Below are positions 43,012-52,340 of a stretch of 64,000 nucleotides of DNA, one piece after another. Location of the stretch: contig JAQURG010000018.1 of the NCBI GenBank assembly GCA_028715725.1, forward strand, positions 1 to 64,000, given 5' to 3'. A model generated the notes under the pieces. The model was not told the origin of the DNA. It searched no databases and saw only the letters and a program-made list of their open reading frames with translations. The translations under genes were made by a program, and so were the position numbers. The number at the start of each line of letters is the position of its first letter. Within the stretch, counting starts at the first letter, position 1. This DNA is from Methylococcales bacterium (GTDB lineage Bacteria > Pseudomonadota > Gammaproteobacteria > Methylococcales > Methylomonadaceae).

Positions 43012-43649
43012 GTTTCGATGTTATTTGCTTTGACTGCGATAGTACCTTGAGCAGAATAGAGGGGATAGACGAACTCGCCAGGCGTGTGGGCATGGCAGAG
43101 GAAATGTCCAGACTGACCGATGCGGCAATGAATGGTCTCGTGCCTTTGGAAGCGGTCTATGAGCGGCGCCTGTCGCTCATCAGACCTGATCAGGACAGCA
43201 TCAACTGGCTGGCCGGTTTGTATATTGAAGAAATAGTCGACGGCGTTAAAGAAGTGTTTGCCTCTTTATTGGCTCAAGATAAAACGGTGCATATTATCAG
43301 CGGTGGATTGCGTCAGGCTATCTTGCCGCTGGCGCAGCGTCTGGGGCTGCCTGAAAGCCATGTGCATGCGGTTGATATTTATTTCAACGAAGACGGCAGT
43401 TACCTTAATTATGATCTGAATTCGCCGCTGGCCAGAACAGGCGGTAAAGCGACTATTGTCGGCATGCTAAAAACACAAGGTGGTTCTTTAGTGATGATCG
43501 GCGATGGCAAAACCGATTTGGAAGCCAAACAGGCCGGCGCTTATGTATTAGGTTTTGGCGGCGTGGTCGATAGAGCGATTGTGCGTGAGACGGCCGACTT
43601 TTATACGGCTGAGCCTAACTTGCTTTCGGTTTTAACGCATATTTTGTAA
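43008..43649 (+). CDS. HAD-IB phosphatase, phosphoserine phosphatase-like
   Basis: A 213-residue HAD hydrolase. Motif I is CFDCDSTLSRIEG (nucleophile D9, acid D11), motif II HIISGGLRQ near residue 96 with Ser, motif III Lys in GGKATIV near residue 146, and motif IV MIGDGKTDLEAKQ near residue 162. The pattern is that of phosphoserine phosphatases lacking the N-terminal ACT domain, and serine synthesis is the likeliest role; other phosphomonoesters are possible. Its start overlaps the small ORF before it. yebC follows 51 bases later. Confidence 0.85.
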   Translation: MSFDVICFDCDSTLSRIEGIDELARRVGMAEEMSRLTDAAMNGLVPLEAVYERRLSLIRPDQDSINWLAGLYIEEIVDGVKEVFASLLAQDKTVHIISGGLRQAILPLAQRLGLPESHVHAVDIYFNEDGSYLNYDLNSPLARTGGKATIVGMLKTQGGSLVMIGDGKTDLEAKQAGAYVLGFGGVVDRAIVRETADFYTAEPNLLSVLTHIL

Positions 43650-43700
43650 GCTTGAAAATTCAAAAAGAAATACATTTAACTGTTTATTTAGAGAGAAATA

Positions 43701-44447
43701 ATGGCTGGACATAGTAAATGGGCTAATATTAAACATCGCAAGGCCGGACAGGACGCCAAACGCGGCAAAATTTTCACAAAAATGCTGCGCGAAATTACCG
43801 TAGCGGTAAAAACCAGCGGTCCCGATGCCGCCAGTAATCCGGCTTTACGCACCGCAATTGATAAAGCATTGGGCGCAAATATGCGCCGCGATACTATTGA
43901 TACCGCCATTAAAAAAGCCTCCGGCGCGCTGGAAGGCGTTAATTACGAAAATATCCGTTATGAAGGCTACGGCCCTGGCGGTACAGCGGTGATAGTGGAT
44001 TGTTTGACCGATAATCGCAACCGCACCGTCGGAGAAGTCCGTCATGCTTTTACTAAAGCGGGCGGCAATTTGGGCACTGACGGCTCGGTCGCCTATCTAT
44101 TCAGCAAGGTAGGCATGCTCAGTTATGCCCCTTCCGTTGACGAGGATGCTCTCATGGAAGCCGCATTGGAAGCGGGTGCAGAGGATATCATCAGCAATGA
44201 TGACGGCTCTCTTGACGTTATGACCACACCGGAAAATTATCTGGCTGTAAAAGACGCCCTGATTGCGGCCGGTTTTGAGCCCGACAATGCCGAAGTCACG
44301 ATGCAAGCCGCAACGATGGCTGAACTGGATGCTGAAGATGCGGAAAAAATGATGCGCCTGATAGACCGCCTGGAAGATCTGGACGACGTGCAGAATGTTT
44401 ATTCCAATGCGGATATCAGCGACGAGATTATGGAAGGGCTGGATTGA
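43701..44447 (+). CDS. yebC: YebC/PmpR-family DNA-binding or translation-associated protein
   Basis: A 248-residue protein with the invariant N-terminus [14 protein letters not shown], the central [20 protein letters not shown] block near residue 93 and [12 protein letters not shown] near residue 120. Long described as transcriptional regulators, some family members have more recently been tied to translation of proline-rich stretches. A GAGAGAAATA element precedes the start. In many gammaproteobacteria yebC is followed directly by ruvC; here a reverse-transcriptase gene lies between. Confidence 0.96.
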
Positions 44448-44461
44448 TGAGTGGTTTAGGT

Positions 44462-44482
44462 TGGGCAACGTTTTTCTGCCCA
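44462..44482 (+). repeat. Short palindrome after yebC (TGGGCA / TGCCCA)
   Basis: TGGGCA (44462-44467) and TGCCCA (44477-44482) flank ACGTTTTTC. The stem can be extended by one or two bases on each side. It sits 15 bases past the yebC stop and might end the yebC transcript. Similar short palindromes are dispersed in many proteobacterial genomes, but no second copy was noticed in this window. It marks the left edge of the insertion holding the reverse-transcriptase gene. Confidence 0.4.
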
Positions 44483-44578
44483 CTACATTGATAAGTCCAG
44501 AATTATGGTGTGCAAGTTTTATGCAAGAAGACCAGCCCATTCTACCTAGCTATCCCTTGATCATCTAGGAATAAAAAA

Positions 44579-46744
44579 TTGATAGTACAGAAGGAAGATG
44601 TATTTGAAGAGAGTAATCTTGAGTTAGCATTTCAGAGATTAAAATTTGGCTCACGCCATCTTCACAAGCAGCTTTATTGGACTGCTCTTAAGGATATTGA
44701 GCCTTTTCGTAAAGACTATTTTCATCTTGTAATCGATAAATTTTCTAAGACTAAAAGGGTAGAGAACCATGGTGTAATCCGCATATATCTTCCCAAAAAA
44801 GGCGGTTTTGTTCGTCCAATTACCTATCTCGGGTTTGAAGCATTACTTATATACCAAGCTTTAGCTAACAAATTGGCAGAGCATTTCTATTGTGTAATGT
44901 CCCAAAACTACAACAAAATTACTTTTGGAAATCATTTTAATGAAAGCTTCCATTCAGAATTTATTTTCATGCCTTGGAAAAAACGGTGGAAAAGCTATCA
45001 AGATAATTCAAAGTCTCTGATTGAAGAGCGTAGTTATAACTATGTTGTGGATTTTGATATCGCTTCATTCTATGACAGCATTGACCATAAGCTTTTAACT
45101 GAAGTCCTTCGCAACCACTTGGACGAATATTTAATTGAGATACTTATATCAATTCTCCAACTTTCCCACTCAGACTTTAAACATATAAAGCCAGGTTGTG
45201 GATCAGGAATTCCTCAAGGGCCACTTGCGTCTACAGTTGTATCGGAAATATTTCTTCATTTCTATATTGACGAATATTTCTCTAAGCAAATACAAAAAAA
45301 TGAAATCGCATACATCCGATATGCTGATGATATTAGGATATTCTCTCAACAAAAGACAATAGCCAAGAAGTTTGTTACCGTACTAGATTTATTATGTAGG
45401 AATTCAGGTTTAATTCCCCAGTCATCAAAAGTTGGAGTAAGATTTTATGAAAACTCGAAAGAGTTGATTGATGAAGACGTTAAGAAATTTAGCCAATTAC
45501 AAAATCAATACAAAAAATCTGGAAAATTGAAGGAAAAGGATTCCCGCAAGGCTCTTAACTTAATGAAAGAAATGCTTAGAACAGGCGAGATAGACAAGAC
45601 CAAGTTTAGTTTTTATATATATAAGATCGAAAAAAACGATAAATTAAAAGAATTAATTTTAGCCAACATTGTGGATAGATATGAGTTTTCTGACTCTATG
45701 CTCTCTTATCTAAAAAAGCATTATTCTAATGATAAGGATGTTGTTGGGAAATTAGTGGAGCTTTTTATGGTTTATGATAACTTTTTCCTTGATTATCCTA
45801 TTTATTCATTTTTGGAGAAGTTTCGGACTGAGGTTAAATTTAATTCCAATCAGTTTTTTAGGCTGTTCAATCGTAAGGATACCGGCAAATGGTTATCTAA
45901 AATTTCTCTAATAAAGTGGGCGTTGCACTGGAAACAAAAAGAGGTATTAGATTCATTAAATCCAGATGATGTTGAAAACGTTTTGCTCAAAAGAGAGCTA
46001 TTGTGTGCACAGAGCGAATTAACAGAAAATTTAGACGTTAAACGTCAAAGAGAAATCAAAATGCTTAATGACGATCATTCAGATATGTCATTTAAATCAA
46101 TTTCTCTGATTTATGAAAGGTTGCTGTTTGAACCAGCACATGATTATTCAACCCCCAAAAATACAGGGAACCCAATAATAGAAAAGATTTTGAATGGGAA
46201 TAATCATAATCCGATTGCTGATACTTTAAGCCGGCGTGACGAAATCACGCTAAATACCACAGAATTATTCTCTAGTAATGTATTCGATGATGAGAATGAG
46301 TTTGAGCAACTGTCAGTTTTATGCAATTTTTTATTTAGCTATTACCACGACAAAAACTACCGACTTTTTATAGATAGTCTCGATCAATTCAATCATATAA
46401 TGGTAGAAAGGCTTTTCTGTTTAGAGAGAGGTAATAGGCCATCTGAAAATTATGGTGCTATTTTAAAAAATGAGAGTTTTATAAATACTGAAATGATTGG
46501 TGTTCGAGACGTGCTTCTGGAGATTCACTTACTTAGAAATGGTGAATTACATCCCAAGGACATAAAAACGGGAAAATTTCATTCTGGAGATAGGGCGTTA
46601 CAACAGAAAACTAGCGTTATAGAAAAACTATTTCCTGAATGGCTTAATGCAATCGAAGAAATTATATCTTGGCACTCTAGAAAACAGACTCTAAAAAAAA
46701 CAACGCCACACCAAAAAGCGGCGGGAGTTTATGATTGCAGTTGA
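44579..46744 (+). CDS. Reverse transcriptase-HEPN fusion protein, AbiA-like (candidate phage defence)
   Basis: A 721-residue protein starting at TTG 44579, with AGGA placed 8 bases before. The N-terminal third is a complete reverse-transcriptase palm: motif A YVVDFDIASFYDSID (D160), motif B GSGIPQGPLAST (209-219), motif C YIRYADDIRIF (D250, D251), then GLIPQSSKVGVRFY. Residues ~295-570 are charged and helical with no recognised domain. The end (~575-700) is helical and carries LLRNGELHPK, with R653-N654 and H658 fitting the HEPN nuclease Rx4-6H motif. RT plus C-terminal HEPN is the layout of lactococcal AbiA, an abortive-infection protein. No maturase, integrase, retron-type motif or template repeat is seen. 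It is AT-rich and sits alone between yebC and ruvC, 24 bases before ruvC. Confidence 0.88.
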   Translation: MIVQKEDVFEESNLELAFQRLKFGSRHLHKQLYWTALKDIEPFRKDYFHLVIDKFSKTKRVENHGVIRIYLPKKGGFVRPITYLGFEALLIYQALANKLAEHFYCVMSQNYNKITFGNHFNESFHSEFIFMPWKKRWKSYQDNSKSLIEERSYNYVVDFDIASFYDSIDHKLLTEVLRNHLDEYLIEILISILQLSHSDFKHIKPGCGSGIPQGPLASTVVSEIFLHFYIDEYFSKQIQKNEIAYIRYADDIRIFSQQKTIAKKFVTVLDLLCRNSGLIPQSSKVGVRFYENSKELIDEDVKKFSQLQNQYKKSGKLKEKDSRKALNLMKEMLRTGEIDKTKFSFYIYKIEKNDKLKELILANIVDRYEFSDSMLSYLKKHYSNDKDVVGKLVELFMVYDNFFLDYPIYSFLEKFRTEVKFNSNQFFRLFNRKDTGKWLSKISLIKWALHWKQKEVLDSLNPDDVENVLLKRELLCAQSELTENLDVKRQREIKMLNDDHSDMSFKSISLIYERLLFEPAHDYSTPKNTGNPIIEKILNGNNHNPIADTLSRRDEITLNTTELFSSNVFDDENEFEQLSVLCNFLFSYYHDKNYRLFIDSLDQFNHIMVERLFCLERGNRPSENYGAILKNESFINTEMIGVRDVLLEIHLLRNGELHPKDIKTGKFHSGDRALQQKTSVIEKLFPEWLNAIEEIISWHSRKQTLKKTTPHQKAAGVYDCS

Positions 46745-46768
46745 TACTGGCGACTTTTTTAAATAAAA

Positions 46769-47269
46769 ATGAGAATTTTAGGGATAGACCCCGGTTCAAG
46801 ACTGACCGGATACGGAATTATAGAAAACTCGCCGCAAGGTTATAAATATATAGCCAGCGGCAGCATTCGGATTAAGACTGATTATTTTCCGGATCGGCTT
46901 AAACAAATTTTTGACGGAATTCTGGAAATTGTCGATAACTATCAACCTGATCAAATGGCAATAGAACAAGTCTTTATGCATAAAAATGCGGATTCCGCGC
47001 TTAAACTGGGCCAGGCTCGCGGCGCGGCAATTTGCGCAGTGCAAGTCAAGGGTTTGCCGGTATTTGAATATGCGGCGCGGCAAGTCAAGCAGGCGGTAGT
47101 AGGGAAGGGAGCCGCTGATAAACTTCAGGTTCAGCATATGGTGAAAATTCTGTTAAATGTTCAGGGCGAGTTGTCTTTGGACGCCAGCGATGCATTAGGC
47201 ATCGGTATTTGTCATGCGCATTATCAGCAGACTGCAATCATGCTGGGTAAACAAGGTCTCTTGAGATGA
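46769..47269 (+). CDS. ruvC: Holliday junction endonuclease RuvC
   Basis: A 166-residue resolvase that cuts Holliday junctions symmetrically. The four acidic catalytic residues sit in RILGIDPGSRLTGYG (D7), MAIEQVFMHKN (E66), and DASDALGIGICH near residue 138. It is the first of ruvC-ruvA-ruvB; its stop overlaps the ruvA start (ATGA). Only 24 bases separate it from the RT gene upstream, so no obvious own promoter lies in the gap; transcription may pass through the RT gene or start inside it. Confidence 0.96.
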   Translation: MRILGIDPGSRLTGYGIIENSPQGYKYIASGSIRIKTDYFPDRLKQIFDGILEIVDNYQPDQMAIEQVFMHKNADSALKLGQARGAAICAVQVKGLPVFEYAARQVKQAVVGKGAADKLQVQHMVKILLNVQGELSLDASDALGIGICHAHYQQTAIMLGKQGLLR

Positions 47270-48902: not shown

Positions 48903-48907
48903 TCAGT

Positions 48908-48954
48908 GTGGAAACGGCTTTAGCCGCGCTCTTCGTGGCTAAAGCCGCTCCCAC
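48908..48954. repeat. REP-like palindromic element downstream of ruvB
   Basis: Two inverted arms, GTGGAAACGGCTTTAGCC (48908-48925) and GGCTAAAGCCGCTCCCAC (48937-48954), flank an 11-base spacer. The right arm is repeated almost exactly at 56720-56735. Such GTGGGAGCGGCTTTAGCC palindromes resemble dispersed extragenic REP elements of gammaproteobacteria, which RAYT transposases mobilise. It may stabilise or end the ruv transcript. Confidence 0.65.
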
Positions 48955-49025
48955 GATGGCTATTTTTTGTCCGGGTTTTAGTATTCGCTCCCAACCTTAT
49001 CTTCGTGCCCTAACCTACAACAGCA

Positions 49026-50534: not shown

Positions 50535-52340
50535 ATGGATAGTCAAAAAAGATTTTTGTGGCCGCTCATTTTAGCCTTAGGGTTACACCTGACACTGTTG
50601 GGCTTATTTGTCTTAAGTGCATTATATAAAACGACGGAACCGGAACCAAAGCCTATTCCGGAAATTATTCATGCGACAATGATCGATACGGCTAGCTTAC
50701 AGGCAGAAGCAGCGGCTGTAAAGAAAGCTAAAGAAGCAAAAAAGCAGGCTGCGGAAGCCAAAGAAAAGGCCGAAACCGAGGCAAAGCAAGCTGAGCTTGA
50801 AAAAGCGAGAAAAGAAGCAGAAGCGGCAGAACAAGCTAAAGAAGAAGCAGTCAGACAATCGAAGGTCGAGGCGGCAGAACAAGCCAAGGCTGAGGCCGCT
50901 AGACAGGCAAAAGCTGAGGCGGCAGAACAAGCCAAGCTAGAAGCAGCCAGACAGATAAAAGCGGAAGTAGCCGAGCAAGCCAAGCTAGAAGCGGCTGCAA
51001 AGGCTAAAGAAGAAGCTGCCAGACAGGCAAAAGCGGAAGCAGCCGAGCAGGCCAAGGCTGAAGCAGCTAGACAGGCAAAAGCGGAAGCCGCTGCACAAGC
51101 AAAGGTCGAAGCGGCGAGACAAGCCAAAGCTGAGGCGGCAGAACAAGCCAAGCTAGAAGCAGCCAGACAGACAAAAGCGGAAGCAGTCGAGCAAACCAGG
51201 CTAGAAGCGGCTGCAAAGGCTAAAGAAGAAGCGGCCAGACAGGCAAAAGCGGAAGCAGCCGAGCAAGCTAAGGCTGAAGCAGCTAGACAGGCAAAAGCAG
51301 AAGCCGCTGCACAAGCAAAGGTCGAAGCGGCGAGACAAGCCAAAGCGGAAGCGGCTGCAAAGGCTAAAGAAGAAGCGGCCAGACAGGCAAAAGCGGAAGC
51401 AGCCGAGCAAGCTAAGGCTGAAGCAGCTAGACAGGCAAAAGCAGAAGCCGCTGCACAAGCCAAGGCCGAAGCTGCCAGACAAGCCAAAGCTGAGGCGGTA
51501 GAACAAGCCAAGCTAGAGGCCGCGAGACAAGCCAAAGCGGAAGCGTCTGCAAAGGCTAAAGAAGAAGCCGCTAGACAGGCAAAAGCTGAGGCTGCTGCAC
51601 AAGCCAAGACTGAAGCTGCCAGACAAGCCAAAGCTGAGGCGGCAGAACAAGCCAAGCTAGAGGCCGCGAGACAAGCCAAAGCGGAAGCGTCTGCAAAGGC
51701 TAAAGAAGAAGCCGCTAGACAGGCAAAAACTGAGGCTGCTGCACAAGCCAAGGCTGAAGCTGCCAGACAAGCCAAAGCTGAGGCGGCAGAACAAGCCAAG
51801 CTAGAGGCCGCGAGACAGGCAAAAGCAGAAGCCGCTGCAAATGCTAAAGAAGAAGCCGCCAGACAGGCAAAAGCCGAGGCTGCCGCACAAGCCAAGGCCG
51901 AAGCCGCGAAGCAGGCAAAAGCGGAAGCGGCTGCAAAGGCTAAAGCAGAAGCCGCTGCAAAAGCCAAGGCAGAAGCTGAGGCGGCTGAAAAAGCAGAAGC
52001 CGAAGCTGCGGCACAAGCTAAAGCGGAAGCTGCCAAAGCCAGAATAGCAGCACAGCGGTCAGAAGCAGAGCAGGCGAAACTTGCCATCAAACAAAAAGTA
52101 AATCGAAGCTGGATCCGCCCTGTCTCTGCTACGACAGGTTTAAAGTGTACAATTCGGGTCAGATTGATGTCCGATGGTACAGTAATAGATGCCGAAGTTG
52201 TTTCCAGTAGCGGCGATGAAATTTTTGACAGATCGGCAGAGAATGCGGTTAACAAGGCATCGCCACTGCCAGTGCCTAAAGATAAAGAGCTGTTTGCCAG
52301 AGAATTTAGATCGTTTCAGTTTTTGTTCAACCCAAAATAA
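50535..52340 (+). CDS. tolA: Tol-Pal system protein TolA with an extra-long repeat domain
   Basis: A 601-residue protein, much longer than the 421 residues of E. coli TolA. Residues ~9-30 form the single inner-membrane helix. Residues ~55-505 are an Ala/Lys/Glu/Gln-rich helix spanning the periplasm, built of 8-residue units such as AARQAKAE. Residues ~510-601 form the globular domain III (NRSWIRPVSATTGLKC and the VVSSSGDEIFDRSAENAV region) that contacts TolB/Pal and is used by colicins and filamentous phage in E. coli. At the DNA level the 24-base units are nested in 144-base repeats. A long open frame on the opposite strand is a by-product of the repeat. Confidence 0.94.
   Translation: MDSQKRFLWPLILALGLHLTLLGLFVLSALYKTTEPEPKPIPEIIHATMIDTASLQAEAAAVKKAKEAKKQAAEAKEKAETEAKQAELEKARKEAEAAEQAKEEAVRQSKVEAAEQAKAEAARQAKAEAAEQAKLEAARQIKAEVAEQAKLEAAAKAKEEAARQAKAEAAEQAKAEAARQAKAEAAAQAKVEAARQAKAEAAEQAKLEAARQTKAEAVEQTRLEAAAKAKEEAARQAKAEAAEQAKAEAARQAKAEAAAQAKVEAARQAKAEAAAKAKEEAARQAKAEAAEQAKAEAARQAKAEAAAQAKAEAARQAKAEAVEQAKLEAARQAKAEASAKAKEEAARQAKAEAAAQAKTEAARQAKAEAAEQAKLEAARQAKAEASAKAKEEAARQAKTEAAAQAKAEAARQAKAEAAEQAKLEAARQAKAEAAANAKEEAARQAKAEAAAQAKAEAAKQAKAEAAAKAKAEAAAKAKAEAEAAEKAEAEAAAQAKAEAAKARIAAQRSEAEQAKLAIKQKVNRSWIRPVSATTGLKCTIRVRLMSDGTVIDAEVVSSSGDEIFDRSAENAVNKASPLPVPKDKELFAREFRSFQFLFNPK
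50700..52050 (+). repeat. Nested tandem repeats within tolA (24-bp units, 144-bp blocks)
   Basis: The landmark GCGGCTGCAAAGGCTAAAG or close variants recur at 50991, 51207, 51351, 51543, 51687 and 51831. The spacings are 216, 144, 192, 144 and 144 bases, all multiples of 24. This is a tandem array of 8-codon units with larger 144-bp duplications nested in it; neighbouring blocks are nearly identical, which suggests recent slippage or unequal recombination. Confidence 0.88.

Follow-up and report, generated by a model that had tools for sequence, protein, structure and literature searches.

A UG19-type reverse transcriptase in the yebC-ruvC junction of a Methylococcales bacterium, probably the latest occupant of a slot repeatedly filled with small cargo, mostly of defence or toxin-antitoxin type

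Defence hotspots flanked by core genes are already known (PMC10250203, PMC5398294), and the usual interpretation is that they are islands which mobile elements have carried in. For example, cDHS1 and cDHS2 of Pseudomonas aeruginosa carry varied defence systems at one site between conserved genes (PMC10250203), and strains of Streptococcus suis exchange defence elements at one variable locus, with competence proposed as the route (PMC5398294). The yebC-ruvC junction described here resembles them in that the defence cargo between its two conserved genes changes from genome to genome. It differs from cDHS1 and cDHS2 (median 26 and 6 kb) by a cargo of 0.5 to 4 kb inside a co-directional operon, and from the S. 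suis locus, which varies within one species, by its use across several genera of a family. A literature search, mostly confined to journals outside subscription, gave no paper describing this junction among the titles listed.

In the DNA studied here the junction is occupied by a reverse transcriptase (RT). Class 1 UG/Abi RTs are described as template-independent, and some of them as protein-primed (accessible parts of PMC13174585 and, for AbiA, of PMC11077055). The AbiK, DRT4, DRT6 and UG15 polymerases share the RT and helical domains with the window RT (VIA-align Z 17–19 over about 440 residues for AbiK, DRT4 and DRT6; UG15 heads the Foldseek list), but in none of these rows was its extra C-terminal HEPN-like domain matched. 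AbiA of Lactococcus has the same order of RT, helical and C-terminal HEPN domains and an RX4-6H motif, and can be aligned over residues 4–705; however, the motif reported for AbiA is RX6H against RX4H here, and the alignment has an rmsd of 11.2. In its accessible part the same source (PMC11077055) gives the R-N-x(3-5)-H type motif as a mark of catalytic HEPN domains and reports that the HEPN domain of AbiA showed no RNase activity in vitro and is enzymatically inactive. The best family match of the window RT is the PADLOC group RT_UG19, a candidate DRT group in which seemingly only a subset of matching proteins carries the HEPN-type motif. A partial literature search, including the accessible text of PMC8934634, found no experimental study of UG19.

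The window, that is the whole stretch of 64,000 nucleotides analysed, comes from a member of the Methylomonadaceae; compared genomes of this family are designated G and individual loci L. Its yebC gene (43701–44447, forward strand), whose protein found matches at E ≤ 1e-60 in 168 of 201 family genomes (ruvC in 179), is separated by 2,321 bp from ruvC (46769–47269, forward strand), which is followed by ruvA, ruvB, ybgC and the tol genes. Between them lies the RT ORF of 721 aa with a TTG start (44579–46744, forward strand), identified from the ORF list, profile matches and alignment, and 24 bases (46745–46768) separate its stop from ruvC. The coordinates all agree with an earlier note on this DNA, which had described a same-direction, AT-rich ORF with a TTG start in the gap, and the two 60-base lines it had quoted, with 53% GC in yebC (44041) and 15% in the RT gene (45601), were exact. 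The GC content amounts to 51% for yebC, 33.6% for the RT gene and 46% for ruvC, with 45.8% for the whole window; one of the window's 1,066 lines of 60 bases has a GC content of at most 15%, and 2 of its 618 tiles of 2.17 kb are as AT-rich as the RT gene, in which the AT-richness of the window peaks. Further downstream, a repeat of about 50 bp is found between ruvB and ybgC (48906–48958), copies of which lie in either orientation at other places in related genomes, and a long tolA-like ORF (50535–52340) contains many near-identical A/K/E/Q-rich repeats, with a long mirror ORF on the opposite strand.

The reading of the ORF as an RT was borne out by Pfam RVT_1 (E 5e-15) and by PADLOC RT_UG19 (PDLC03756, E 2e-112). 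The latter was the best model, with 375 bits over residues 5–681, followed by UG21 with 157 bits, so that by profile score the protein is placed in the UG19 group above the other RT groups. The AbiA model was not among the best 25 PADLOC models listed for the protein. The RT ORF gave the sole RVT_1 match in the assembly. An alignment was built from 17 of 19 sequences (the window and L079 to L096), leaving aside L089, which is cut at a contig end, and L094, which has 400 aa; the RT_UG19 model matched all 17.

The AlphaFold2 model of the full-length protein (pLDDT 81, pTM 0.71) comprises RT fingers and palm in residues 1–300 (44579–45478, forward strand), which VIA-align superposed on group II intron and DRT RTs with Z of 17–25. 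The polymerase motif YADD is at residues 248–251 (45320–45331, forward strand), and its two aspartates do not vary in any of the 17 rows. With regard to protein priming, for which AbiK has a priming tyrosine, Y33 is kept in 15 of the 16 rows that have a residue there. An all-helical, AbiK/DRT4/DRT6-like domain follows at about residues 301–515 (45479–46123, forward strand) in the model, and alignments with 9wy8, 9vdo and 7r07 run through residues 509–511. When compared to DRT6, DRT4 and AbiK by VIA-align, residues ~12–511 of the model aligned over 436–445 residues with Z of 17.0–18.8 and rmsd of 4.2–4.6. The protein is thus predicted to join an RT to a HEAT-like helical repeat domain, as Class 1 UG/Abi RTs do.

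The C-terminal 175 residues were modelled separately (pLDDT 85, pTM 0.83), and a HEPN-like domain is predicted at about residues 567–705 (46277–46693, forward strand). Rows 1 to 7 of the VIA-align comparison were HEPN toxins with Z of 7.9–9.1, the best designed or other bundle reaching 6.8, values that are near the helical-bundle noise level; for this domain Foldseek gave no match at E ≤ 0.001 (E > 1) and Pfam gave none. The alignment reveals an HEPN-type RX4-6H motif, R-N-G-E-L-H, at residues 653–658 (46535–46552, forward strand), whose R653, N654 and H658 do not vary among the 17 sequences (R-N-x(3-5)-H, with a polar residue after R). The domain may therefore be described as HEPN-like on the basis of a firm motif and a suggestive fold. 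Taken over model residues 4–705, the comparison with AbiA (8oz7_C) covered 501 residues with a Z of 19.1, which suggests an AbiA-type architecture of RT, helical and HEPN parts, with the HEPN part depending on the same motif and suggestive fold. On reading the C-termini of L076 and L078, which both match the UG19 model, the RX4-6H motif was not seen. In another genome of the class (L075, 202–3336) a distance of about 100 bp separates the end of the UG19 RT from a transposase-like ORF, which has possibly truncated it. The UG19 group as modelled may accordingly be non-uniform.

These domains also bear on the question whether the ORF is the relic of a retroelement, a group II intron maturase or a retron, instead of a defence gene. 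We regard this as very unlikely. It is true that group II intron RTs were the structural rows with the highest Z and that TIGR04416 matches weakly, but its score of 76.5 compares with a cut-off of 300, UG19 is by far the best model, and the helical and HEPN-like C-terminus is common to all 17 aligned sequences. Neither an intron nor a retron RNA was found by Rfam at the RT locus.

Homologues were sought with one genome per species. An earlier scan of contigs with the single RT protein as query had given no match, and the alignment query then found relatives outside the family. The nearest are a Candidatus Anammoxibacter MAG (66% identity), a Flavobacteriaceae MAG (51%), Campylobacterales (39%) and Sulfuricurvum (38%), with further ones at about 30% identity in Flavobacteriia, cyanobacteria and Firmicutes; several of these are MAG bins, for which single taxon assignments may be wrong. 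Within the family, the RT protein matched 24 of 201 genomes at 1e-10 (the window's own included), and all of these matches except the window were partial, with 26–33% identity over roughly 125–290 residues. A UG19-like RT was not found in either of the other genomes of the same genus or in the rest of the 200 family genomes searched. Of the 369 genomes in the class sample the UG19 model matched 4, and of the 398 in the phylum sample 1, the window's own being counted in both. The recent acquisition proposed in the earlier note thus holds in the form of a probable horizontal acquisition of a defence-type gene, in view of its AT-richness, the failure to find UG19-like RTs in the searched relatives and the homologues in other phyla. 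The presence of the RT at the same site in all relatives with matching phylogeny, which that note had named as counting against it, was not encountered. An origin from a plasmid or phage was considered and set aside: no plasmid or phage protein covered 80% of the RT, no plasmid DNA match was obtained, and the scan of viral contigs gave mostly short generic RT matches.

Three homologues have neighbours that match defence genes, namely DrmA and DrmB of DISARM at L093, a PARIS-like pair of AriA- and AriB-like proteins at L080 and a type II methylase at L088; a match to NsnA lies next to L083. Ten neighbours were scanned; those of L086 and L087 and the second neighbour at L088 had no match, and that of L096 matched the candidate model PDC-S26 only. 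The neighbourhoods support, without proving, a defence role, and the RT is likely an anti-virus gene.

To place the junction in its family context, the distance between yebC and ruvC was compiled from 150 ruvC and 133 yebC rows among the matches listed; 17 listed yebC rows were omitted, of which only G131 had a listed ruvC row, on another contig. Among the matches listed, 100 genomes had both genes on one contig, and in 98 of these they were adjacent and co-directional. The gap was below 100 bp in 59 of the 98, 100–500 bp in 16, 500–1000 bp in 7 and 1–4 kb in 16, the window included. The short co-directional junction is thus the commonest state in the family, it also recurred at six loci elsewhere in the order, and the empty junctions that a cross-genome comparison was expected to reveal do exist. 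A gap of 0.5–4 kb was nonetheless present in 23 of the 98 listed genomes, and both other genomes of the same genus are loaded, with 3.2 kb in G049 and 2.7 kb in G023. In G012 (L064) serB is followed directly by ruvC, and this genome has no yebC match at 1e-60.

This distribution bears in two ways on the earlier note's reading, by which a defence gene entered an otherwise intact junction in a single event. The junction is indeed empty in most relatives and a UG19-like RT was found nowhere else in the family sample, which would both fit such an event. Different cargo at the same place in both same-genus genomes, the 23 gaps above 500 bp among 98 and the remnant of vapBC found between the RT and ruvC (see below) argue against a one-off event, and we consider this reading improbable.

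The alternative cargo is diverse. It comprises a GmrSD-type protein in G039 (GmrSD_N/C; HEC-06 model), a DNA methylase (N6_N4_Mtase) with a type II restriction enzyme (REase_II) in G129, a HEC-02A/B pair in G114, Uma2 in G153, a PIN toxin in G155, BrnT in G049, HNH in G161 and a PLD-like protein in G009. By similarity or reading of the sequence, Uma2 was further named in G049, G059, G009, G179 and G171, PIN in G023 and G003 and PLD in G003. DUF2442 proteins were found in G031 and G096, a GNAT acetyltransferase in G024, a sub-threshold Y1_Tnp in G084 and a collagen-like protein in the junction of G004. In G135 three co-directional cargo ORFs (L239, 1178–3190) had no Pfam match, and the two scanned with PADLOC had none there either; this three-gene cargo is a candidate unknown system. 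The main ORF of G049 had neither a Pfam nor a PADLOC match, and those of G119 and G084 (265 aa) had no Pfam match. A cargo gene of about 360 aa is found in the same genus (L062, 8065–9132; L063, 10617–11717); the L062 copy had no Pfam or PADLOC match and appears nuclease-like by eye.

As to the orientation of the cargo, 19 loaded loci together contain 52 ORFs with a length of 65 aa or more, and 49 of these were co-directional with yebC and ruvC. In G037 and G149, which are outside this set, the only ORFs of at least 60 aa are on the opposite strand, and adding both gives 49 of 55. At neighbouring junctions, which served as the control, gaps above 500 bp were found in 0 of 26 cases for serB-yebC, 1 of 39 for ruvC-ruvA, 1 of 21 for ruvA-ruvB and 0 of 6 for ruvB-ybgC, the control loci having mostly been picked for their loaded yebC-ruvC junctions. 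The corresponding Fisher p of 0.0024 is indicative only, as an unselected set was compared with a chosen control set. In G022 (L067), where yebC is on another contig, ruvC and ruvA are split by 2.8 kb with GGDEF/EAL-type and hemerythrin-like proteins (names read from sequence), and in G018 (L068) the ruvCAB run is unusual in having 1.2 kb between ruvA and ruvB. No integrase was present among 20 cargo proteins scanned with Pfam and no tRNA or tmRNA in the window, so that these marks of an integrase-borne genomic island were not seen.

The junction might instead be a relaxed intergenic spot in which any DNA lands harmlessly, the cargo mix mirroring what is generally mobile and not a selected socket. 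The non-defence cargo of G004 (collagen-like) and G024 (GNAT), the lack of a visible integrase or attachment site and the split ruvC-ruvA (G022) and ruvA-ruvB (G018) junctions are all consistent with this. The near-complete co-direction of the cargo and the rarity of gaps at neighbouring junctions argue instead for selection on operon-compatible cargo, and we hold the relaxed spot to be a possible but rather unlikely explanation.

The edges of the insert provided information on the history of the junction. A dispersed intergenic repeat at 44457–44489, left of the insert, is pre-existing junction DNA, with 91% identity to G135 and 80% to G049 at the corresponding site behind yebC; its core pattern has 15 occurrences in the genome at up to 2 mismatches, against 3 for a reversed control pattern. 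On the right, 46713–46758 (forward strand) can be attributed by similarity to other junctions to a vapBC remnant, comprising the end of vapB, the first six codons of vapC and a 12-bp match to the vapC interior. The first 35 bp (46713–46747) match the vapB end and vapC start of G155 at 97%, G023 at 92%, G049 at 91% and G003 at 89%, and the 12-mer directly following, CTGGCGACTTTT, lies inside vapC of G003 and is absent as such from vapC of G155. Beside ruvC of the window, vapC thus seems reduced to a stub, and in G039 a separate vapC stub is found beside ruvC with its own cargo upstream. The acquired segment then spans about 2.2 kb, approximately 44490–46712; these breakpoints, which the earlier note had suggested mapping, were placed where the ancestral similarity stops on the left and right, and not by means of a target duplication. 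The view that the insert fills the whole gap was right for most of it, which is foreign, but not for the two pre-existing stretches at its ends. The RT frame overruns the stop of its closest homologue, L079 (at about residue 705), by some 16 codons and ends in the older junction DNA. Since the vapBC remnant stands beside ruvC, the RT seems to have replaced older cargo: the arrangement was likely yebC-vapBC-ruvC first, after which most of vapBC was replaced by the RT segment. No sign of an exchange of flanks between genera emerged, DNA identities of the window to G135, G049 and G023 being similar on both sides of the insert (mostly 79–86% over the aligned stretches).

Judging from orientation and spacing, the RT may be on the yebC-ruvC transcript. 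The earlier note had stressed the lack of room for a separate ruvC promoter, and this is correct but not informative: 51 of the 59 listed relatives with gaps below 100 bp have at most 48 bp. Little promoter room is normal in the family, most empty junctions offering ruvC even less of it than the window does, and therefore read-through could be argued for equally well where the RT is lacking. A ruvC promoter inside the RT gene, which had been named as speaking against read-through, gave no signal; 6 promoter-like sites were found in 43600–47000, fewer than the 10.3 expected from shuffles, and this candidate was dropped. At up to one mismatch the window has 16 matches to LexA-type boxes where 14.4 are expected, and no convincing one lies at the junction. 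The one Rfam match to a non-coding RNA, with a score of 0.34 far under the gathering score, was treated as chance.

In summary, the yebC-ruvC junction of this family is probably a slot that takes up small cargo recurrently, mostly of defence or toxin-antitoxin type, with a stand-alone UG19-type defence RT of RT, helical and HEPN-like parts as its latest occupant in one lineage. The RT itself, its absence at the same place in relatives, the alternative cargo found there and the displaced vapBC remnant are direct observations. Against the slot stand several cargo proteins without a defence match, namely all three ORFs of G135, the main ORFs of G049, G084 and G119 and the GNAT protein of G024, and likewise the collagen-like protein of G004. 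In the mechanism we propose, the RT gene would have come in by horizontal transfer and taken the place of older cargo. As it is co-directional inside the operon, read-through from the serB/yebC side would transcribe it. By analogy with the Class 1 UG/Abi polymerases AbiA and AbiK, the RT protein might sense infection and then make DNA without a nucleic-acid template, while the HEPN-like domain might dimerize the protein or act as an RNase effector. Since the HEPN domain of AbiA lacked RNase activity in vitro, a structural role may be a better guess than RNA cutting. Tentatively, and with more doubt than for the slot as such, the junction could be an operon-embedded immune socket, in which the conserved flanks yebC and ruvC provide the arms for integrase-free swaps by homologous recombination, only co-directional cargo is kept and immune expression is tied to a DNA-repair operon, the occupant belonging to an RT-HEPN clade that would unite a DNA polymerase and an RNase effector in one protein.

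The RT represents a candidate DRT group with an AbiA-like extra domain. A small slot of 0.5–4 kb in a housekeeping repair operon, which holds different co-directional defence genes from genus to genus along with debris of earlier occupants, would be a clean place to study the swapping of immune genes, and its core-gene flanks would offer a simple route to new systems, for which the three genes of G135 and the gene of G049 and G023 are candidates.
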